From Microbacterium sp. Root61 (GTDB lineage Bacteria > Actinomycetota > Actinomycetes > Actinomycetales > Microbacteriaceae): DNA of 64,000 nucleotides. The translations under genes were made by a program, and so were the position numbers. The notes beneath the pieces were generated by a model. It worked only from the letters and a program-made list of their open reading frames with translations. It made no database searches and was not told where the DNA came from. Shown here one piece after another: positions 8,048 to 45,760 of this stretch. The stretch is taken from NCBI RefSeq assembly GCF_001427525.1, contig NZ_LMGU01000001.1:1397788-1461787 (forward strand), written 5' to 3'. How positions within the stretch are numbered: position 1 is the stretch's first letter; every line of letters begins with the position of its first letter.

Positions 8048-8683
8048 TCAGGAGCTCAGGCGTCCGCCCGACTCGCGCAGGTAGCACTCGCCGCACAGCG
8101 ACTCGTAGGTGACCTCCTGGCCGTCGATGGCGACCTGGTCGCCGTCGAAGACGAAGTGACCGTCGACGAGGCGCCCGTTGAACAGCGCCTTGCGTCCGCA
8201 GCGGCAGATGGTCTTGAGCTCTTCGAGCGTGTGCGCCACCTCCAGCAGGCGTCGCGATCCGGGGAACGCGCGCGTCAGGAAGTCACCGCGGATGCCGTAC
8301 GCCATCACCGGCACGTCATCGAGCACCGCGACGCGGAACAGGTCGTCGATCTGCGCCGGGGTGAGGAACTGCGCCTCATCCACCAGGAGGCAGGCGACTT
8401 CCGCCGGACCGCGGCTGAGCCCGGTGAGCTCGTCGTGCGTGTAGCGGACCCGCGCCTGATGCTCAGCGAACAGGCCTCGGGCGTCGTCGGCCGCATCGAT
8501 CAGGAAGTCGACGGGACGCGTCATCCCGAGCCTGCTGGAGATCTGACCGGCACCCTTGGTGTCGATGCGGGGCTTCGCCAGCAGCACGTGCTGCCCGCGC
8601 TCCTCGTAGTTGTACGCGGCCTGCAGCAGGGCGGTCGACTTCCCCGAATTCATCGCGCCGTAGCGGAAGTAGAGTTTGGCCAC
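8048..8683 (-). CDS. tdk: Thymidine kinase, type II
   Basis: Phosphorylates thymidine to dTMP using ATP in pyrimidine salvage. The 211-aa protein has the P-loop YGAMNSGKSTALLQ at its N terminus, the Walker B-like CLLVDEAQFL, the lasso region that closes over thymidine, and two Cys pairs (CRCG and CGEC) forming the structural zinc site of tetrameric type II enzymes. The GTG start at 8683 is supported by TAGAAT ending 6 nt upstream and by the absence of a ribosome site. It is probably monocistronic. Confidence 0.93.
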   Translation of the reverse strand: MAKLYFRYGAMNSGKSTALLQAAYNYEERGQHVLLAKPRIDTKGAGQISSRLGMTRPVDFLIDAADDARGLFAEHQARVRYTHDELTGLSRGPAEVACLLVDEAQFLTPAQIDDLFRVAVLDDVPVMAYGIRGDFLTRAFPGSRRLLEVAHTLEELKTICRCGRKALFNGRLVDGHFVFDGDQVAIDGQEVTYESLCGECYLRESGGRLSS

Positions 8684-8689
8684 CCGCCG

Positions 8690-8695
8690 ATTCTA
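8690..8695 (-). promoter_or_regulatory. -10 hexamer, leaderless tdk
   Basis: On the minus strand TAGAAT ends 6 nt before the GTG of tdk, predicting transcription from the start codon itself. Confidence 0.5.
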
Positions 8696-8723
8696 CGGAA
8701 AGCGCTTCCGCAGCGAGGCGCGA

Positions 8724-9149
8724 CTACGGCCGTTCCCAAGACTCGATCCCACCGGCGGCCAGGATGAAGCTCGGCGCCGCCCTCGCCGGATCGTCCAGTC
8801 GTGGCAGCCAGGCGGCATCCCGTGCCGTCACCTTCCTGCGCAGGTGCTCGAGCTCGTAATCCAACTGACCGGACGTGACCGGAATACCAGGGGCCGCCGC
8901 ATCCGGTGCAAGGACTCGGGTGAGGTCGAACCGGTAGCCTCGCGCCGTCGCTTCGTCGTGCAGCCGCGCGAGGTAGTGGCCGATCGCGTCGTCGGGGCGC
9001 GCACAGGCGCGGAAGCGCTCGAGCTGCGGGTGCCGGGTATAGCCGCGCGTGCCACCGGCGAGCACCTTCTGCGCCAGCAGTCCCTCGCGCCAGCAGGCGA
9101 CGAGTGCCGCACGATCGAGGATCGACGGATGCAGCGACCAGAGCCTCAT
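8724..9149 (-). CDS. Pyrimidine-dimer DNA glycosylase, endonuclease V type
   Basis: Small 141-aa protein beginning MRLWSLHPSILDRAALVACW, followed by REGLLAQKVLAG and YTRHPQLERF. These match the T4 DenV-like family (Pyr_excise), in which the N-terminal amine at residue 2 attacks the sugar of UV-induced cyclobutane dimers and cuts the strand. In phage DenV the mature N terminus is Thr; here residue 2 is Arg, as in many bacterial homologues of uncertain activity. GGGAG lies just upstream of the ATG at 9149. It is downstream of mqo on the same strand, 43 nt away. Confidence 0.75.
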   Translation of the reverse strand: MRLWSLHPSILDRAALVACWREGLLAQKVLAGGTRGYTRHPQLERFRACARPDDAIGHYLARLHDEATARGYRFDLTRVLAPDAAAPGIPVTSGQLDYELEHLRRKVTARDAAWLPRLDDPARAAPSFILAAGGIESWERP

Positions 9150-9192
9150 AGACTCCCGATGCCCTTCCCCGTCGCTGCCCAGCTGAGACGGA

Positions 9193-10665
9193 TCAGGCTG
9201 TCAGCGCCAGTGCTTGCGCCGTCTCGGCCTGCACCTCGGCCGCAGCCTCGGGGCGCGGGTTGAGGGTCTCGCCGTAGGTCGGGATGAGCTCGCGCAGGCG
9301 CGGCTCCCAGCCGTCGATCTGCTCGGGGAAGCACGTCTGCAGCAGCCCCAGCATGATCGAGACCGCCGTCGAGGCGCCCGGAGAGGCGCCGAGCAGGCCG
9401 GCGATCGTGCCGTCGGCACCCGTGACGACCTCAGTGCCGAACTGCAGCACGCCGCCCTTCTTCGGGTCCTTCTTCATGACCTGCGCGCGCTGACCAGCCT
9501 GGATCAGCTCCCAGTCCTCGTCCTTCGCGGTGGGCACGAAGTCACGGAGCGTGTCGACCTTCTTGGCGTGGTTCTTCAGCAGCTCGCTGACGAGGTACGT
9601 GATCAGCGACGGGTTGTCGATCGCGACCTTGAGCATCGGGCCGATGTTGCCGGCCCGCACCTGCGTCACGATGTCCAGCATCGAGCCGTTCTTGAGGAAC
9701 TTGGGGCTGAACGTCGCGAACGGGCCGAACATGAGCGCGGCCTCGCCGTCGACGACGCGCGTGTCCAGGTGCGGCACCGACATCGGCGGGGCACCGACGG
9801 ACGCCTGCGAGTACACCTTCGCCTGATGCTGCGCGACCAGGGCGGGGTTCGTGGTCTTCAGGAACTGCCCGCCGATCGGGAACACGCCGAAGCCGGAGAT
9901 CTCGGGGATGCCGGAGCGCTGCAGCAGCTTGAGCGCCCAGCCACCGGCACCGACGAACACGAAGCGCGCCCTCGTCGACCCGGGCGTGCGGCCCAGTGAG
10001 TTGCGCCACTTGATGAGCCAGGTGCCGTCCTTCTGACGCTTGAGCGTGCGGACCTCGCGGTTGGTGACGACGTCGACTCCGCGGGCGCGGAGGTTGTCGA
10101 ACAGTTGGTGGGTGAGCGCACCGAAGTCCACGTCGGTGCCCGCAGGCACACGGGTCGCCGCGAACGGCTCGCCCGCACGGCGCTTCTGCATCAGCAGCGG
10201 GGCCCACTGGTTGATGACCCGGGAGTCCTCGCTGTACTGGATGCCGGAGAACAGCGGCTGCGTCTTGAGCGCTTCGTAGCGCGCCTTGAGGAACGCGACA
10301 TCCTTCTCGCCCCGCACGAACGTCATGTGCGGCGTCGAGTTGATGAACGTCGAGGGTGCGTCCAGCACGCCCTGCTCCACGAGCGACGACCAGAACTGGC
10401 GGCTCTGCTGGAACTGCTCGTTGATCGAGATGGCCTTGGCCGGGTCGACGGAGCCGTCCGGGCCCTCGGGCGTGTAGTTCAGCTCGCACAGGGCGGCGTG
10501 CCCGGTGCCGGCGTTGTTCCACGCGTTGGAGCTTTCCAGTCCGACGTCGTGAAGTCGCTCGAAGACCGAGATCTTCCAGTCGGGCTGGAGCTCGGAAAGG
10601 AGGGTACCGAGAGTGGCGCTCATGATGCCACCGCCGATGAGTACGACGTCGACCGTATCTTTCAC
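9193..10665 (-). CDS. mqo: Malate:quinone oxidoreductase
   Basis: Membrane-associated FAD enzyme of the TCA cycle that oxidises L-malate to oxaloacetate and reduces menaquinone. The 490-aa protein begins with VVLIGGGIMSATLGTLL, a Rossmann FAD motif, then has SSNAWNNAGTGHAALCELNY and, near the C terminus, LLGASPGASTAVSIML, all diagnostic of Mqo. An ATG lies at 10668, but TAGAAT at 10672-10677 ends exactly 6 nt before the GTG at 10665, as in the other leaderless genes here. I therefore prefer the GTG, which removes one residue. No ribosome site is visible. Confidence 0.95.
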   Translation of the reverse strand: MKDTVDVVLIGGGIMSATLGTLLSELQPDWKISVFERLHDVGLESSNAWNNAGTGHAALCELNYTPEGPDGSVDPAKAISINEQFQQSRQFWSSLVEQGVLDAPSTFINSTPHMTFVRGEKDVAFLKARYEALKTQPLFSGIQYSEDSRVINQWAPLLMQKRRAGEPFAATRVPAGTDVDFGALTHQLFDNLRARGVDVVTNREVRTLKRQKDGTWLIKWRNSLGRTPGSTRARFVFVGAGGWALKLLQRSGIPEISGFGVFPIGGQFLKTTNPALVAQHQAKVYSQASVGAPPMSVPHLDTRVVDGEAALMFGPFATFSPKFLKNGSMLDIVTQVRAGNIGPMLKVAIDNPSLITYLVSELLKNHAKKVDTLRDFVPTAKDEDWELIQAGQRAQVMKKDPKKGGVLQFGTEVVTGADGTIAGLLGASPGASTAVSIMLGLLQTCFPEQIDGWEPRLRELIPTYGETLNPRPEAAAEVQAETAQALALTA

Positions 10666-39320: not shown

Positions 39321-39989
39321 TCACGTACGCGCTTCGTGCCGCTTCGGCTTGAGCCGCTCAGGGGCGTCGGTCGCGGGAACCCATTCGCAGGCGAAGGAGC
39401 CCTGGTAGCCGAACAGGAACCCGAACCGCGAGTTGCGCACCTCGAGGTCGATGTGGAACAGCCCGTCACGGTCGTCGAATCGTTCTCGCAGGCGGGCCCG
39501 ACCGCTGAACAGCATCGGGAACCGGAACGCGACCGGACCCTCGTAGAACCGCTGCGCATCCGAGGTGAGGATGAGCGCGCCATCGTCATCGACACCCAGG
39601 TCGAGGTCGACGGCGAGATGCTGGTGGGTACCGAGATAGTCGATGATCCGATCCCCCACGCCGATCATCGTGGCGTCGAAGCGTCGACGGCGACCGCGGA
39701 TGTCGTACTCCCGCACGAAGGTGACGGTCTCCCGCCCGAATGGGTCGAGGTAGGGGTAGTTCTCGATCCGGAACGGGACATCGGTGCCGACATCCGGGAT
39801 GAGGATGTTGCGCAGTCGGCCGACCTGCAGGAATGGCACCGTCCACCACGGACCGCGCCGGATCCGCACCATCGTCCCGCGCCCGACGCATGCCTCACCG
39901 GAGTCCAGCCCGATTCCGAACCGCTTCTGCAGCATCGGGTGCAGGCGCGCGAAGTCCTCGACCAGCGCGCGCTCGAACATCGACGTCAT
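39321..39989 (-). CDS. DUF4166 domain protein
   Basis: 222-aa protein beginning MTSMFERALVEDFARLHPML, followed by the DUF4166 body with GRGTMVRIRRGPWWTVPFL, VPFRIENYPYLDPFGRETV and PMLFSGRARLRERFDD. The fold is probably a beta-barrel lipid- or steroid-binding type domain; no catalytic residues are evident. DUF4166 is often found fused to or next to NAD(P)-binding oxidoreductases, as here. The ATG has GGAGG 5 nt upstream and overlaps the SRPBCC stop by one base. It is the third gene of the epimerase-SRPBCC-DUF4166 operon. Confidence 0.82.
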   Translation of the reverse strand: MTSMFERALVEDFARLHPMLQKRFGIGLDSGEACVGRGTMVRIRRGPWWTVPFLQVGRLRNILIPDVGTDVPFRIENYPYLDPFGRETVTFVREYDIRGRRRRFDATMIGVGDRIIDYLGTHQHLAVDLDLGVDDDGALILTSDAQRFYEGPVAFRFPMLFSGRARLRERFDDRDGLFHIDLEVRNSRFGFLFGYQGSFACEWVPATDAPERLKPKRHEART

Positions 39990-40633
39990 CAGCTCCTCCT
40001 CGGGTCGGCGAGCACGGCGAGCGTGGCCGGCGCGTCGCGCAGATGGTCGTCCTGCCGCGCCCCGTGCGCAGGCGCGCGCAGGCACCGCGCCGCACGCGGG
40101 CGATCAGGCCGCCACAACCACAGCGCACTGGAAAACGGCCACGCCTCGGGAGCTTCGCCCCGCTCGATCCAGATGCGCAGTCGATCGAAGCTCCACGCGG
40201 TCACCCACCCCAGGAGGGGCCGCACGATGAGGTCCGGAATCCGCCCCCAGCCGGGGGTGTAGTCGTATCCGGTGAGAAACCGGGTGTCCCCGTCATCCGG
40301 GACGTACCGCCAGTACCCCCGGCCGTCGCGGATCGGCGAGAGCGGGTCGACTGTCGAGAAGCGTAAGGCGGACGTGCGCGTGCCGTCCGGGCGGGAGCGT
40401 TCTCCGATGGTGACGCCGGTGCCGGCCACCGTGTGGAACGCGATGCGACGCGCATAGGTGAAACGCGTCTCGCCCGCTTCGCTCGACTCAGTGGGCACGA
40501 TCTGCGAGAACCGGGCATCCCACCGACCGTGCGCGGCCGGATCCTGGGTGAGCTCCCACACTTTCTCCGGGTCGGCCCGGATCACGATCTCGACATAGAT
40601 GGCTGATGCGCCCCGCCTTCGGCGCCCGCTCAC
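39989..40633 (-). CDS. SRPBCC (START-like) domain protein
   Basis: 214-aa protein with the SRPBCC signature near its N terminus (VEIVIRADPEKVWELTQDPAAHGRWD), a fold that encloses hydrophobic ligands such as lipids, steroids or polyketides. The C-terminal third, with WSFDRLRIWIERGEAP, contains aromatic helices and an Arg/Ala-rich tail. The GTG at 40633 overlaps the epimerase stop as GTGA, so it is coupled. The ligand is unknown; the adjacent KSIII/HDO genes make a long acyl chain or ketone plausible. Confidence 0.78.
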   Translation of the reverse strand: MSGRRRRGASAIYVEIVIRADPEKVWELTQDPAAHGRWDARFSQIVPTESSEAGETRFTYARRIAFHTVAGTGVTIGERSRPDGTRTSALRFSTVDPLSPIRDGRGYWRYVPDDGDTRFLTGYDYTPGWGRIPDLIVRPLLGWVTAWSFDRLRIWIERGEAPEAWPFSSALWLWRPDRPRAARCLRAPAHGARQDDHLRDAPATLAVLADPRRS

Positions 40634-41541
40634 CTGAACACCGCCGCGACGCCGCGACGCGGCATCCGCAGATCTGCGCACCCGAATCCGCCCGGAGCAG
40701 GGAGCGCGGCCCGGATCGACGCCTCATCGAACGGGAGCCGCGGTCGCAGCGCCCGCGGCAGTTCACCCGCGGGCTGGACGGCATCGGTGACGCCTTCGGC
40801 CAGCATCCGCACCTGCGCCATGGCCACCAGCGGGACCTTCATCGTCCACTCGGCGACCTGCGCCAACGCGTAGTGGAACGCCACCGGCGCGGGCACCACC
40901 AGCACCCGTCGGCCGACGACGCGGGCAACGCGTCGCACGGCCTCGCTGAGCAGGAGGGTCTCACCGCCGCGCACCGCGACCGTGCGCTGCGCGAGCTCTC
41001 CCCCGAGCGCGGCGACCATCACGTCGACGAGTTCGGCGACCGGAATCGGGCTGATGGTCTTCTCGCGCAACCCGACCGCGGCGAACAGCGGGATGGTCTG
41101 CACCGTGTGGCTGAGGTGGTCGACGAGATGGTCGCCGCGGCCGTAGATCATCCCCGCCTTGAGGACCGTGTACTCCAAACCCGATGCGCGGACGATCTCC
41201 TCGGCCGCCCACTTGGACTCGTGATAGCGCGAGCCGCAGTCCGGGCGCGCGCGCAGGAAGCTGAGCAGCACGATTCGCCGCACGCCTGCGCGACGCGCGG
41301 CCTCGACCACGGCCGCGGTCCCCCGCACGTGGACGCGGTCGAACGTCTGGTCGCCGAGCTCACGATTGATCCCGGCGCAATGGGCGACGGCCTCGCACCC
41401 GTCGAAGGCACGGGTCAGGGCATCGACATCGTCCACCTCGACGCCGGTGCGGCGCGAGGCGAGCACGACGTCGGCGGGCGCGAACCGCTCGGCGAGATGC
41501 CGGCCCACGAAGCCGGTCCCTCCCGTGATCGCGATCTTCAT
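40630..41541 (-). CDS. Atypical extended SDR / NAD(P)-dependent epimerase
   Basis: 303-aa Rossmann protein: MKIAITGGTGFVGRHLAERF gives the TGxxGxxG cofactor motif. CEAVAHCAGINRELGDQTFD follows, then VHVRGTAAVVEAARRAG and LLSFLRARPDCGSRYHESKW with the YxxxK pair, and a C-terminal substrate region. It resembles NDUFA9/ complex-I-like or ketoreductase-type atypical SDRs. It may reduce or epimerise a small carbonyl substrate. I prefer the ATG at 41541; an upstream ATG at 41577 lies inside the palindrome. It heads a three-gene operon divergent from the KSIII gene. Confidence 0.82.
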   Translation of the reverse strand: MKIAITGGTGFVGRHLAERFAPADVVLASRRTGVEVDDVDALTRAFDGCEAVAHCAGINRELGDQTFDRVHVRGTAAVVEAARRAGVRRIVLLSFLRARPDCGSRYHESKWAAEEIVRASGLEYTVLKAGMIYGRGDHLVDHLSHTVQTIPLFAAVGLREKTISPIPVAELVDVMVAALGGELAQRTVAVRGGETLLLSEAVRRVARVVGRRVLVVPAPVAFHYALAQVAEWTMKVPLVAMAQVRMLAEGVTDAVQPAGELPRALRPRLPFDEASIRAALPAPGGFGCADLRMPRRGVAAVFR

Positions 41542-41569
41542 GCCCGCCCTCACCGGCATCACATCAGAA

Positions 41570-41583
41570 CTGAACATGTTCAG
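41570..41583. promoter_or_regulatory. 14-bp perfect palindrome between divergent operons
   Basis: CTGAACATGTTCAG is perfectly self-complementary. It lies 29 bp upstream of the epimerase ATG and 49 bp upstream of the KSIII start, in the only sizeable gap between the two operons. Size and symmetry fit a TetR- or MarR-type site. No such regulator is encoded nearby. Confidence 0.6.
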
Positions 41584-41619
41584 AAAGTATCACATGCGCT
41601 CCGGATTCCGCTCGTGGCC

Positions 41620-41625
41620 TAGGGT
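41620..41625 (+). promoter_or_regulatory. -10 hexamer, leaderless KSIII gene
   Basis: TAGGGT ends exactly 6 nt before the ATG at 41632; no ribosome site is visible. Confidence 0.5.
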
Positions 41626-41631
41626 CGTGAC

Positions 41632-42774
41632 ATGGGCTCGACGGCGACCGCATACCTCACGGGCTTCGGCCGGTACCTCCCCGGAGATCCGGTCGACAAC
41701 GACGCGATCGTCACCCGCCTCGGCGGCGATGACCCGGTCACGGAGCGCATCCGTCGCCGCATCCTGGATTCGAACGGCATCCGGCAACGCCACTACGCGC
41801 TCGACGAGAACGGCGAGCCGACCGAGCTCAACGAGGAGCTCGCGGTCAAGGCCCTCCGCGCCGCGCTGGAGGATCGCGGCATCGACGCGGCCGACCTGCG
41901 GATGCTGGCGTGCGCGACGACGATGGGCGATGCGCTCGTGCCGGGCTTCGCCTCCATGGTGCACGGCCGCCTGGGCGGCGGACCGATGCAGGTGCTGTCC
42001 GCGTCGGGCGTGTGCGCGTCCAGCCTCGCCGCGCTCGACGCCGCGGTGAGCAAGATCCGACTCGGCGACCATCCGATCGCCGCGGTCGTCGGCTCCGAGC
42101 TGGCGAGCCGCAATCTGCGGCAACGCCGCTTCGACGGCATCCGTGCCGGGATGGACTCGCACTTCCTCCGCTGGATGCTGTCCGACGGCGCGGGTGCCGC
42201 CATCGTCGAGTTCCAGCCCCACCCGAGCAAGCCCTCGCTGCGAGTCGATTGGGTGCGTCAGGTCTCGCTCGCCCACGAGCACGACGTCTGCATGCGGGCA
42301 GGCATGACCGGCACCGAGGCGAGCGTGGGCACGACGTGGCAGGACGTCGGGATCGACGAGGCCGAGGCGGCCGGCATGTTCCTGCTGCGGCAGGACGTGA
42401 GCGTGCTGGACGACCTCGCCGACGCGGGCATCCGGCAGTTCGAAGAGCTCGTCGACATCGGACTCGTCGACGTGAAGAACCTCGACCACGTCGTGTGTCA
42501 CTACAGCACCAACGCCTTCCGCGACGTCGCGTTCGACGCGCTGCGGCGCCGCATCCCGACACTCGACACGGACCGGTGGTTCTCGAACCTCGAAACCCGC
42601 GGCAACACCGGAGCGGCGAGCATCTTCATCGCGCTGGAAGAGGCCTGGAGCACCGGCCGGTTCGCACCCGGCGAGACGGTGCTGCTGGCCGTGCCCGAAT
42701 CGGGGCGCTTCTCGTTCGCCTTCGCCCACCTCACCGTGGTCGCCCCACCCGTTCAGCAAGGAGCACCGACATGA
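41632..42774 (+). CDS. Beta-ketoacyl synthase III-family (thiolase-fold) enzyme
   Basis: 380-aa FabH-like protein. The catalytic triad is visible: Cys128 in SASGVCASSLAAL, His290 in VVCHYSTNAF and Asn325 in TRGNTGAASIF, so Claisen condensation or acyl transfer via an acyl-Cys is expected. It is longer than housekeeping FabH (about 320 aa) and is not in a fatty-acid synthase cluster. In size and context it is closer to specialised KSIII proteins such as OleA- or DarB-like enzymes. The downstream HDO gene overlaps its stop as ATGA, implying a shared pathway. Substrates cannot be read directly. Confidence 0.87.
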   Translation: MGSTATAYLTGFGRYLPGDPVDNDAIVTRLGGDDPVTERIRRRILDSNGIRQRHYALDENGEPTELNEELAVKALRAALEDRGIDAADLRMLACATTMGDALVPGFASMVHGRLGGGPMQVLSASGVCASSLAALDAAVSKIRLGDHPIAAVVGSELASRNLRQRRFDGIRAGMDSHFLRWMLSDGAGAAIVEFQPHPSKPSLRVDWVRQVSLAHEHDVCMRAGMTGTEASVGTTWQDVGIDEAEAAGMFLLRQDVSVLDDLADAGIRQFEELVDIGLVDVKNLDHVVCHYSTNAFRDVAFDALRRRIPTLDTDRWFSNLETRGNTGAASIFIALEEAWSTGRFAPGETVLLAVPESGRFSFAFAHLTVVAPPVQQGAPT

Positions 42775-43469
42775 CGAACCCGACGACCACGACGCTCGAC
42801 ATGCCGCCCGCCGGCGACGGCGCCCTGCCGGATCGGCTCGCCGACGTCTGGACCGAGCTCGACGAACGCCTCGCACGGGTACCGGTCCTGAGCCGGCTCG
42901 CCGATGGCACCGTCACCCTCGAGGACTACAAGCGACTGCTCTTCAACCTCCGGCAGCAGGTCGTCGACGGATCCGCGTGGATCTCGCGGGCCGCTTCGAG
43001 CTTCGACATCGACCATTTCGAACTCCGGTCGGCGGCGATCCACCATGCCGAGGAGGAGCACCGCGACTACCTGATGATCGAACGCGACTACGTCGCGGTC
43101 GGCGGTTCACTGGACGACCTGCGCCGCGGGCGCAAGAACATCGGCTCCGAGGCGCTGTCCGGATACATGTTCCACTACGCCGATCGGCCCAACCCCGTCG
43201 GGCTGCTCGGCGCGATGTTCATCATCGAAGGGCTCGGCGCCAAACGAGCCGCCGGGTGGGCGGCCCGCTTCCAAGAGGTGCTCGGGCTCGCCGACAGCCA
43301 GGTGCACTTCATGAAGTACCACCAGGAGGCTGACGCCCAGCACACCGGAAACCTCGGCGTCATCCTCTCCTCGGGGATGATCGACGGCGCGGCGGCCGAT
43401 GAGATCGTGCGCTGCGCGCAGGTGGTCGCGCGCCTCTACGCACTCCAGCTCGAAGAGCTGGATCACTGA
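42771..43469 (+). CDS. Heme-oxygenase-like diiron (HDO/TenA-like) protein
   Basis: 232-aa all-helical protein of the iron-containing redox/TenA-PqqC-like fold. Probable metal ligands are visible: HHAEEEH at 91-97 (central helix), Glu153 in MFIIEGLGAK, and H184-x3-D188-x2-H191 in the helix YHQEADAQH, the typical HxxxDxxH of heme-oxygenase-like dimetal oxidases. Known members decarboxylate fatty acids (UndA), oxidise N-groups (SznF) or cleave C-C bonds. The overlap with the KSIII gene suggests it acts on the condensed acyl product. Ligand assignment is by pattern only. Confidence 0.82.
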   Translation: MTNPTTTTLDMPPAGDGALPDRLADVWTELDERLARVPVLSRLADGTVTLEDYKRLLFNLRQQVVDGSAWISRAASSFDIDHFELRSAAIHHAEEEHRDYLMIERDYVAVGGSLDDLRRGRKNIGSEALSGYMFHYADRPNPVGLLGAMFIIEGLGAKRAAGWAARFQEVLGLADSQVHFMKYHQEADAQHTGNLGVILSSGMIDGAAADEIVRCAQVVARLYALQLEELDH

Positions 43470-43470
43470 C

Positions 43471-44322
43471 GTGGCGGAGTTCGTCCGCTCCGACCCGAGC
43501 ATGTGGGAGGCGATCTACGCCGATCCTTCCGTGCCGCTCGACCGCGCGCTAGTCCGGCAGATCATCAACGACCAGCGGCGCCTGTCGCGCCGCTGGCTCT
43601 ACCCGATCGTCCGCGTGCTCTCCCGCGTCATCGTCGCCCTCGTCTCGATCATCAAGCGCGTCCTCCCGTTCCGATGGATGCCGCTGCGCACCATGGACGT
43701 GTTGTGCGTGTGGTTCCTCCGACGGTTCGTCTCCCCCGACGCCGTCGAACTGCTCATCCGACATTTCGTCATCGAGACCAATCTCGTCAACTTCATCATC
43801 CGCAACACGCCGGTCGACATGGAACCGGTCACTCTGCGACCCGAGACGCTCGCCGGACTCGGCGATCACGCCGTCGTCGAGCACGACGTCAACGTCTACG
43901 ACGTGCTCATCGCGCTCGACAAGGTGCCGCTGACTCGGGCCGAGACCTTGGACTTCGCCCAGCTCGACATCCCCCGACTCGATGCCGAACGGCGCCGCCG
44001 CCGCATCGTCCGCCTCGACATCCAGACAGCCCTGTGCTTCATGAACATTCCGTTCTCCATGGCGCTCACCGTCGAGGAGTACCGCCGCGCGGTGCACTCG
44101 ATCCGGTTCGACGACTCGTTCATGGAGATCCTCGCGCTCGTCTGCGACGACGACACGTTCCGGCACTGGAAGCTCGGAGGGCTGAGCCTCTGGATGGACT
44201 CGAACGTCGATGTCCCGCGCATGGTCTACCGGCACGCGCTCGTGTGCGAATACGCCCACGCCCGCCTCGTGAAGCTCGCGGGCGGCGCATATCCGCGGAA
44301 CACCGACGCCGCGTTCGACTGA
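43471..44322 (+). CDS. Uncharacterised protein coupled to KSIII and HDO genes
   Basis: 283-aa protein starting at a GTG one base after the HDO stop. The N-terminal 30 residues are polar. A strongly hydrophobic, Arg/Lys-flanked region follows (residues about 40-75: WLYPIVRVLSRVIVALVSII) that could lie in or on the membrane, then a conserved-looking patch HFVIETNLVNFIIRN. The C-terminal half is helical and charged, with KLGGLSLWMDSNVDVPRMVY. I recognise no catalytic motif or named family with confidence. Its position makes it a dedicated partner of the KSIII and HDO enzymes. Confidence 0.75.
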   Translation: MAEFVRSDPSMWEAIYADPSVPLDRALVRQIINDQRRLSRRWLYPIVRVLSRVIVALVSIIKRVLPFRWMPLRTMDVLCVWFLRRFVSPDAVELLIRHFVIETNLVNFIIRNTPVDMEPVTLRPETLAGLGDHAVVEHDVNVYDVLIALDKVPLTRAETLDFAQLDIPRLDAERRRRRIVRLDIQTALCFMNIPFSMALTVEEYRRAVHSIRFDDSFMEILALVCDDDTFRHWKLGGLSLWMDSNVDVPRMVYRHALVCEYAHARLVKLAGGAYPRNTDAAFD

Positions 44323-44350
44323 CGCAGACATGACCGGGAGAGGCACGCCG

Positions 44351-45760
44351 ATGACGAGGATCGCCGTGGACACCATCATCCGCGGCGGAATCGTCGTGAC
44401 CCCGTCCGGGCGCAGCGCGAGCGACATCGGCATCCGCGACGGCAGGATCTCGCACGTCATCGATCGCGACTCGACGACGATCGAGCTGGATGCCGCGACC
44501 GTCCTGGACGCGCGCGGGGCGTTCGTCCTTCCGGGCGCGATCGACGCGCACGTGCACTTCGCGACAACGAGCCCGGGGGCGGAACCCGGATTCGTCGACG
44601 ACTTCCTTCGCGGAACACGGGCGGCGATCCACGGCGGGGTCACCACCGTCGGTCAGATGAGCTTCACCGACACGGGAAGCTTGCGGGCGGCGGTGGAGGC
44701 CGACCACGCGCAGGCGCGTGCCCTCTCGACCATCGACTACGTGCTGCATCCGGGCACCTATGCGGTGGCCGCCGAAGCGATCTCCGAGCTCGCGGGGCTC
44801 GCCGAAGAGGGCTATCGGACACTGAAGCTCGTCACCCTGGCGCTGGATGAGGACTCCACGCACTTCGCGGAGGCGGTTGCACGGGCAGGCGAGCACGGGA
44901 TGCTCACCCTGCTGCACTGCGAGGACGGCGCGCTCATCGAGCACGCCACCTCCGAGCTCATGTCGGATGGCAGGAGCGATCTGCGGTTCTACCCGGAGAG
45001 CCGGCCGGTCGTGACCGAATCGGCAGCGGTCGATCGCGCCATCGCCCTGTGCGAGCTGACCGGATCACCGATCTACATCGTGCACCTGTCGTCGGCGCGA
45101 GCCCTTGAGGCCGTGCGCGCCGCCAAGGGCCGCGGACTGCCCGTGTTCGCCGAGACCCGCCCGATCTACCTGTACCTCACCGATCGGGTGCACGCGGAGC
45201 CGGACGGCGGGCGCTTCATCGGGATGCCGCCGCTGCGCCGGGATGAGGATGTCCGTGCCCTCTGGGAGGGACTGGCGGACGGCTCGATCGACACCGTCGC
45301 GAGCGACCACGCGCCGTGGTCGCTCGCCGCGAAGATCGACCCCGCCCTCACCGTCGAGACAGCCCGCAAGGGCATGGCCGAACTCGACACGTTCCTCCCA
45401 CTCCTGTACTCGGAGGGCGTGCGGACCGGCCGCCTCAGCCTGGAGCGGCTGGTGGCGGTGTCGGCGGAGAACCCGGCGCGCCTACTCGGCCTCTATCCGC
45501 AGAAGGGCGCGCTCCAGGTCGGCAGCGACGCCGACATCGTCGTGCTCGACCCCGCGGACGAGCGCACGATCCGGGCAGCGGAGCTGGAGAGCGCGGCGGA
45601 CTACTCGGTCTACGAAGGCTGGACCGCCACGGGCTGGCCGCGCCTCGTGCTCTCGCGCGGCGAAGTCGTGCTCGCCCGCGACGGATCGTCGTGCACCATC
45701 ACCGCCGCGCCCGGCCGCGGGCGATGGCTGCCCGCCGGCGAACGGCGAGAGCCGGTCTGA
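44351..45760 (+). CDS. Cyclic amidohydrolase (dihydropyrimidinase/allantoinase-like)
   Basis: 469-aa amidohydrolase hydrolysing a cyclic amide such as a hydantoin, dihydropyrimidine or allantoin. All metal ligands of the binuclear site are visible: GAIDAHVHF (HxH), the carbamylatable Lys in TLKLVTLAL, His in LTLLHCEDG, His in YIVHLSSARAL and Asp in TVASDHAPWSL. A C-terminal SENPARLLGLYPQKGALQVG strand region matches D-hydantoinase-like enzymes. GAGAGG lies 7 nt before the ATG at 44351, which I prefer over the ATG at 44330. It may be the fourth gene of the KSIII operon or independent. It converges on the GNAT gene. Confidence 0.88.
   Translation: MTRIAVDTIIRGGIVVTPSGRSASDIGIRDGRISHVIDRDSTTIELDAATVLDARGAFVLPGAIDAHVHFATTSPGAEPGFVDDFLRGTRAAIHGGVTTVGQMSFTDTGSLRAAVEADHAQARALSTIDYVLHPGTYAVAAEAISELAGLAEEGYRTLKLVTLALDEDSTHFAEAVARAGEHGMLTLLHCEDGALIEHATSELMSDGRSDLRFYPESRPVVTESAAVDRAIALCELTGSPIYIVHLSSARALEAVRAAKGRGLPVFAETRPIYLYLTDRVHAEPDGGRFIGMPPLRRDEDVRALWEGLADGSIDTVASDHAPWSLAAKIDPALTVETARKGMAELDTFLPLLYSEGVRTGRLSLERLVAVSAENPARLLGLYPQKGALQVGSDADIVVLDPADERTIRAAELESAADYSVYEGWTATGWPRLVLSRGEVVLARDGSSCTITAAPGRGRWLPAGERREPV

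Follow-up and report, generated by a model that had tools for sequence, protein, structure and literature searches.

A putative biosynthetic gene module pairing a ketosynthase with a heme-oxygenase-like diiron protein in Microbacterium sp. Root61 and distant prokaryotes

INTRODUCTION

One class of ketosynthases is described as condensing a beta-ketoacyl thioester with an alpha,beta-unsaturated acyl thioester to give 2,5-dialkylcyclohexane-1,3-diones (PMC4578411), and cyclohexanediones are reported as intermediates of the dialkylresorcinols made by the darABC operon (PMC4414361). For the dar locus of Azoarcus, an aromatase (darA, the DAR-aromatase) and an acyl carrier protein (darC) are listed, with darB as the DAR-cyclase (PMC3949708). 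Heme-oxygenase-like diiron proteins (HDOs), for their part, are described with a 3-His/3-carboxylate ligand set and with a chemistry that covers C-C cleavage, desaturation, N-oxygenation, and rearrangements (PMC13108848). Here, we analyzed a 64,000-nucleotide stretch of the genome of Microbacterium sp. Root61 (contig NZ_LMGU01000001.1, positions 1,397,788 to 1,461,787; the whole stretch is called the window, and positions are numbered within it), in which a beta-ketoacyl synthase III (KSIII; the window protein and its counterparts are called KS), an HDO, and a protein of family DUF6999 are encoded side by side. As far as our searches show, this triad of genes is an undescribed module composed of known kinds of enzymes and two families of no known function; broad literature queries returned no description of a KS-HDO set, by title and abstract, among the matches listed.

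RESULTS

A three-gene operon with a probable promoter of its own

The KS, HDO, and DUF6999 genes form one tight operon at positions 41632 to 44322, preceded by a promoter-like element:

41620-41625, plus strand: -10-like box TAGGGT, 6 bases ahead of the KS start codon, with a presumed promoter role
41632-42774, plus strand: KS, a StlD/DarB-like beta-ketoacyl synthase III of 380 amino acids (aa) with the triad C128/H290/N325
42771-43469, plus strand: HDO, a heme-oxygenase-like diiron protein of 232 aa (PF14518)
43471-44322, plus strand: DUF6999 protein of 283 aa with a GTG start codon (PF22523)

The stop codon of KS and the start codon of HDO overlap by 4 bases (ATGA), as expected from the translational coupling claimed in a first-pass annotation of the window, and the DUF6999 gene starts one base past the HDO stop codon. 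All six genes described in that annotation, namely, these three and three divergent ones treated below, were recovered as open reading frames (ORFs) and in family searches. Four loci from the window's own family were compared upstream of KS: CCTAGGGT precedes the gene in the window and in loci L010 and L011, and CCTATGTT precedes it in L012, while the bases farther upstream of the box differ among the four. Because the -10-like box is kept before KS in all of them, the triad probably has its own promoter, and the position of the box suggests a leaderless transcript.

Gene order is conserved across phyla

An HDO search of genome contigs yielded 448 relatives, the best 80 of which were examined. 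By title, these comprised 58 Gammaproteobacteria or proteobacterial metagenome-assembled genomes (MAGs), 20 archaeal MAGs, and 2 Myxococcota. KS was found in 79 of the 80 loci, DUF6999 in 79, and up185, a family of membrane proteins described below, in 77. The order KS-HDO-DUF6999 was contiguous in 77 of the 78 loci with all three genes, which spanned Gammaproteobacteria, Myxococcota, and Marine Group II archaea; the sole exception was L096, where DUF6999 is inverted. L054, L080, L081, and L093 were incomplete, and in these loci the stretches stop close to the missing gene. The gene neighborhood outside the module was variable. Among the archaeal loci, five flanking gene families, each of 11 to 16 members, were found repeatedly, which argues against contamination, though it is no proof of origin.

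Genome surveys with DUF6999 point to a patchy distribution that reaches distant bacteria and marine archaea. In the window's phylum, 4 of 396 genomes had a match; in its family, 9 of 249 did, and KS and HDO adjoined DUF6999 in all nine of the latter (in five of them, the stretch ended within KS). In the phyla that contain a Nitrincola, a Myxococcales, and a Poseidoniaceae genome, matches were present in 9 of 398 genomes (Pseudomonadota; KS and HDO adjacent in 9 of 9), 15 of 146 genomes (14 over the cutoff), and 11 of 194 genomes (counted by the DUF6999 match alone), respectively. Among 14 control genomes, only Caulobacter vibrioides had a match. Nine of the 15 Myxococcota matches were examined over a wider region and six over 3 to 4 kb; among the latter, L115 and L117 had KS and HDO, L119 had HDO, L120 had HDO and a desaturase, and L121 and L128 had neither KS nor HDO. 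The triad locus also occurs in the cultivable genera Shewanella, Halomonas, and Pseudoalteromonas, and a Pseudoalteromonas plasmid carries it in the order up185-KS-HDO-DUF6999.

KS and HDO are encoded in a single ORF of 626 to 726 aa, followed by DUF6999, in 10 further loci: six from Pseudomonadota (L129 to L134) and four from Myxococcota (L137, L138, L139, and L141). Both Pfam domains lay in one protein in the two fusions scanned (L129, 631 aa; L138, 726 aa), and the two genes are separate in L018, L089, L096, L135, L136, and L140. Because their order is conserved across phyla and they share one ORF in these 10 loci, we consider KS and HDO a functional pair, and the fusion suggests that HDO takes the KS product directly. 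The pairing of an acyl-condensing KS with a diiron oxidase, as first annotated, is thus sustained. Additionally, pairwise distances over 90 loci were correlated between HDO and KS (0.934), HDO and DUF6999 (0.885), and KS and DUF6999 (0.948), with none of 500 permutations as high, shared species history being uncontrolled in these values.

The ketosynthase resembles StlD and is distinct from the housekeeping FabH

The best solved relative of the window KS was StlD (5gk0; 212 bits, or 304 bits by profile), and the similarity covered almost the full length; the stretch LRWMLSDGAGA is common to both. Residue conservation was assessed on rows drawn from the fetched loci, mostly from gammaproteobacteria and archaea. 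The Cys-His-Asn triad, annotated as intact, corresponds to C128, H290, and N325, and these residues, along with E156 and W207, were invariant in 98 of 98 aligned KSs. On curated models, the window KS scored 318 bits with NF005293 (StlD/DarB subfamily; cutoff, 450) and 287 bits with NF053539 (DarB; cutoff, 550), and three other module KSs scored 333 to 380 and 271 to 331 bits, respectively. Because it misses these cutoffs, the window KS is not classed as DarB, which we take to be the name of the cyclohexanedione-forming KS; it would work like one at most, and ring formation is proposed by analogy only.

A KS tree was built from 47 rows, including 37 module KSs, with OleA, CerJ, and PqsD absent; 12 of its 44 inner branches were open, and the row own_L148, a stop-to-stop reading, had a very long branch. 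One fork (81/88) united all 37 module KSs with StlD and with three plasmid KSs (two from Bacteroidota and one from Streptomyces). The window KS shares the Cys-His-Asn triad as well as LRWMLSDGAGA with StlD, and in the tree the module KSs are placed toward StlD/DarB and away from FabH. The module KSs do not form one clade, and unlike them, StlD and the two Bacteroidota plasmid KSs form a separate group of their own (100/100). The module also differs from StlD/DarB pathways in that its KSs score below the curated cutoffs and in that HDO and DUF6999 adjoin KS, whereas darA and darC are listed at the Azoarcus dar locus.

Membership in the KSIII family and a weak score with the FabH model TIGR00747 (76.9 bits, or 80.4 in another search; cutoff, 292) might be taken to indicate a second FabH for ordinary fatty-acid initiation, with incidental neighbors. 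However, the genome encodes a separate FabH (C1:457336-458283; 303 bits, above the cutoff), which clusters with four plasmid KSIIIs (99/94) apart from all 37 module KSs, and the HDO partner is conserved and in places fused. FabH identity was rejected on the basis of the low TIGR00747 score, the separate own FabH, and the tree position, and we judge a second FabH to be extremely improbable. The description of the enzyme as a non-housekeeping KSIII, for which placement in a tree had been suggested, agrees with its position apart from the own FabH and with its conserved HDO neighbor. The outcome that the annotation had named as refuting its proposal, a KSIII inside a characterized FabH clade with no conserved HDO neighbor, was not observed.

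Other DarB-like KS genes were observed on plasmids. Two lie on plasmids of Bacteroides ovatus (L100) and Prevotella nigrescens (L099), with no aromatase among the annotated genes of the stretches examined, and the one in L100 is near a gene with a tail-fiber domain. The Prevotella plasmid KS scored 492 bits with NF005293 (over the cutoff) and 480 bits with NF053539 (under the cutoff), and the Streptomyces plasmid KS scored 374 and 339 bits, respectively. On a plasmid of Streptomyces sp. NBC_01383 (L098:3370-17113), a StlD/DarB-like KS is accompanied by two acyl carrier proteins, a phosphopantetheinyl transferase, FabF, FabG, a P450, an FAD oxidoreductase, and an SCP2-type sterol-binding protein, a set that looks like a separate biosynthetic cluster.

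The HDO has invariant residues that may be metal ligands

The window HDO matched PF14518 with 39.4 bits (cutoff, 28.9), and the model was also matched over the cutoff by L071, L129, and L138. Residues H92, E96, D99, E127, E153, H184, D188, and H191 were invariant in 95 of 95 rows, and position 66 was Glu in 91 rows and Asp in 4, including the window. The HxxxDxxH motif noted in the first-pass annotation is present at 184 to 191, and its His and Asp residues are among the invariant ones. Three invariant His residues and five carboxylates fit a 3-His/3-carboxylate HDO as putative ligands, and in these features and its Pfam family the protein is like the HDOs UndA, CADD, BesC, SznF, and MboA. What sets the module HDO apart from known HDOs is its co-inheritance with a ketosynthase and, in places, its fusion to one; the main text of a 2026 HDO review contains none of the words "ketosynthase," "neighborhood," and "fusion" (PMC13108848). 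Compared with solved structures, the HDO profile matched 3dde (E value, 1e-9) and, weakly, MboA (E value, 0.83), and UndA gave no match up to an E value of 1.

These results bear on a hydrocarbon route, in which OleA-like head-to-head condensation would be followed by UndA-like oxidative decarboxylation to give a long-chain ketone or alkene. Desaturase neighbors at other loci provide an acyl context for it, and the fatty acid decarboxylase UndA belongs to the HDO superfamily (PMC13108848). Against it, the HDO profile matches 3dde and not UndA, and KS is nearest to StlD; no chain among the 37 solved chains up to an E value of 1e-5 was named OleA, although OleA entries may carry general names. 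In PpyS, E105 and C129 lie 24 residues apart (PMC4578411). In the window KS, a spacing test made with no superposition found Pro104 and Leu102, rather than Glu, at 24 and 26 residues before Cys128. The OleA Cys position behind the spacing of 26 is one that we assume. OleA identity was rejected by this residue spacing only. Like OleABCD, the window combines a KSIII-family enzyme with a nearby short-chain dehydrogenase/reductase (SDR), but the latter occurs in the window only and is unlinked in relatives, no Glu stands at the tested spacings, and no ole gene was found among the recurrent neighbors family-searched, which covered part of the clusters. Because KS resembles StlD/DarB rather than OleA, the ole/und route is less likely, and we regard it as improbable. 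The first-pass proposal of an acyl-derived product of a KSIII and an HDO hence survives as the best reading, and the long-chain ketone or alkene becomes only one option.

KS might instead be a non-condensing acyltransferase of the CerJ kind, with HDO acting on an acylated small molecule or amino acid. Ketosynthases with acylating activity exist (PMC4578411), and fatty or amino acids are the predominant HDO substrates to date (PMC13108848). However, the similarity to StlD extends over nearly the whole length of KS, including LRWMLSDGAGA, and the recurrent neighbors family-searched included no obvious acceptor-making gene. We consider this explanation unlikely as well.

DUF6999 and the membrane partners

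The 283-aa protein, annotated at first pass as uncharacterized with a hydrophobic segment, has a single hydrophobic stretch at 43 to 61 and belongs to DUF6999 (PF22523; 323 bits against a cutoff of 27), so that the segment stands and the lack of a family does not. Twelve DUF6999 positions, including R97, H98, H138, D139, D183, D214, H255, and E260, were invariant in 93 of 93 rows. A literature search found the term "DUF6999" in no paper.

Most loci examined outside the window's family have a fatty-acid desaturase or up185 beside the module. A PF00487 desaturase gene adjoins it in L129 to L134 and L138 (Pfam); in L129, a fatty-acid hydroxylase gene (PF04116) is present as well, farther upstream. 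Desaturases were identified by similarity in L141, L120, L089, L096, and 10 of 20 archaeal loci, two of which were confirmed by Pfam. As in membrane desaturases of PF00487, to which UndB presumably also belongs, His residues were invariant in three boxes of the 11 desaturases aligned. None of the stretches of the 58 gammaproteobacterial loci, mostly with up185, and none of three own-family regions contained a homologue of these desaturases. Two PF00487 genes lie elsewhere in the window's genome.

In 57 of the 58 gammaproteobacterial loci, up185 was present, the exception being L080, where the contig ends. The gene lies upstream of KS (e.g., L009:17645-18202), and its His-rich product of about 185 aa has multiple hydrophobic segments (5 in L009 and 2 to 4 in three others). 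D26, H30, E43, H47, H81, E82, H86, D88, E102, H104, and H106 were invariant over 41 rows, and no Pfam family was matched by the 41 members scanned (best stray E value, 0.0066, in one member). These residues suggest that up185 may be a new family of membrane metal enzymes. It was not found in the window's genome; a companion alignment matched 8 of 8 genomes that have it. PDB sequence searches with DUF6999 and up185 were uninformative (none up to an E value of 5; one ADP/ATP carrier match, at 0.004, was taken as chance), and profile comparisons of up185 with DUF6999, DUF6999 with HDO, and up185 with the desaturases revealed no kinship.

A DUF6999 tree of 34 rows divides the rows by locus architecture. 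Twenty up185 rows formed one group (100/98), and eight of nine fused rows formed another with L135 (100/100). The three own-family rows joined L141 and L142, a join that long branches make unsure.

The divergent genes and other neighbors lie outside the module

Three minus-strand genes with overlapping ends diverge from KS, and their Pfam families agree with the first-pass description:

39321-39989, minus strand: DUF4166 protein, a neighbor judged to be outside the module
39989-40633, minus strand: SRPBCC/Polyketide_cyc2 protein, a neighbor judged to be outside the module
40630-41541, minus strand: SDR/epimerase (earlier in-frame ATG at 41577), a divergent neighbor judged to be outside the module

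These genes had been placed with the triad in a six-gene pathway, in which SDR, SRPBCC, and DUF4166 would reduce and carry the KS product. The two sides are only 90 bases apart (54 with the SDR start at 41577), and a perfect 14-base palindrome, CTGAACATGTTCAG, lies in this gap at 41570 to 41583. However, no homologue of SDR, SRPBCC, or DUF4166 was found near the triad in three own-family relatives examined over 20 kb (L010 to L012), and the 200 bases preceding KS in these loci lack the palindrome. Conversely, DUF4166 occurs in 61 of 119 genomes of the window's genus and is adjoined by SRPBCC in 29 of 30 genus loci. SDR, KS, HDO, and DUF6999 were absent from all 30 of these loci over about 3.5 kb each and from four of them over 19 kb. 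L180 keeps the SRPBCC-DUF4166-transglutaminase order of the window plus three further genes, with no triad or SDR in the stretch. Since SRPBCC-DUF4166 occurs without the triad, and the triad occurs without the divergent genes in relatives, the triad adjoins unrelated genes. The six-gene pathway was rejected on these grounds, and we view it as very unlikely.

The palindrome occurs once in the window and may be an operator bound by a regulator of the SDR side. Several genomes of the genus have two or three DUF4166 copies, some side by side. A dihydropyrimidinase/hydantoinase-like amidohydrolase is encoded on the same strand at 44330 to 45760, 7 bases past DUF6999; it is probably unrelated because it was not found near the triad in L010 to L012. 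No other gene of the window neighborhood was found near the triad in these relatives, except for one weak match in L012.

DISCUSSION

A proposed condensation-oxidation pathway

We propose that a small acyl-derived metabolite is made by a self-contained module of patchy distribution with the triad at its core, a reading drawn from sequence comparisons and one on which our confidence is evenly balanced. KS would load an acyl thioester on Cys128 and join it to a second acyl thioester from primary metabolism; neither a carrier protein nor a ligase was found among the recurrent neighbor genes family-searched, which came from some of the clusters. If the reaction parallels that of StlD/DarB, one partner would be a beta-ketoacyl thioester and the other an alpha,beta-unsaturated acyl thioester, both of which are beta-oxidation intermediates, and the product would be a dialkyl-cyclohexane-1,3-dione or an open diketone. 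This product would be handed directly to HDO and oxidized with O2 at a di-metal site by desaturation/aromatization, hydroxylation, or oxidative C-C cleavage. Given the range of known HDO reactions, HDO could replace an aromatase, acting at the point held by a DarA-type enzyme in the known pathway, or cleave a C-C bond. DUF6999, probably membrane associated, would then perform a further, possibly metal-dependent, step through its invariant His, Asp, and Glu residues. Outside the window's family, a membrane His-box desaturase or up185 may modify the acyl chain in most loci, and the window's family has the three-gene form, with neither at the locus.

Several observations weigh against this proposal. 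The window KS falls below both curated cutoffs (318 against 450 bits for StlD/DarB and 287 against 550 for DarB), and the Pseudoalteromonas HDO (L009), which is 46% identical to that of the window, has no PF14518 match up to an E value of 1. The correlation of HDO, KS, and DUF6999 distances carries no species-tree control. In L142 (G1071; 8388-10597), KS adjoins DUF6999 and HDO was not found, the oxidase being either lost or very diverged; partial DUF6999 matches in L143 (G1087) and, below the cutoff, L128 had no KS or HDO. Neither a desaturase homologue nor up185 was found in the stretches of L135, L137, L139, and L142 or in the three own-family regions, and a membrane partner is therefore not general. 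Recent transfer is also unsupported, because the G+C content of the triad (0.680) is close to that of the window (0.692) and composition thus gives no sign of it.

Significance

The pairing of a ketosynthase with a diiron oxidase, conserved across phyla in both bacteria and archaea and fused in some loci, points to an undiscovered metabolite. The combination of KS and HDO chemistry is one that the main text of the 2026 HDO review does not mention (PMC13108848). More tentatively, with somewhat less than even confidence, condensation and oxidation by KS and HDO in one channeled step could represent a new O2-dependent C-C bond-forming class in bacteria and Marine Group II archaea, in which DUF6999 and up185 would be new, perhaps metal-dependent, enzyme families and the product a widespread acyl-derived metabolite or membrane lipid. 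The module provides a testable setting for DUF6999 and for the unnamed membrane family up185, and the product could be sought in the cultivable hosts Shewanella, Halomonas, and Pseudoalteromonas. For Marine Group II archaea, which are difficult to investigate, it would offer a way toward one of their metabolites.

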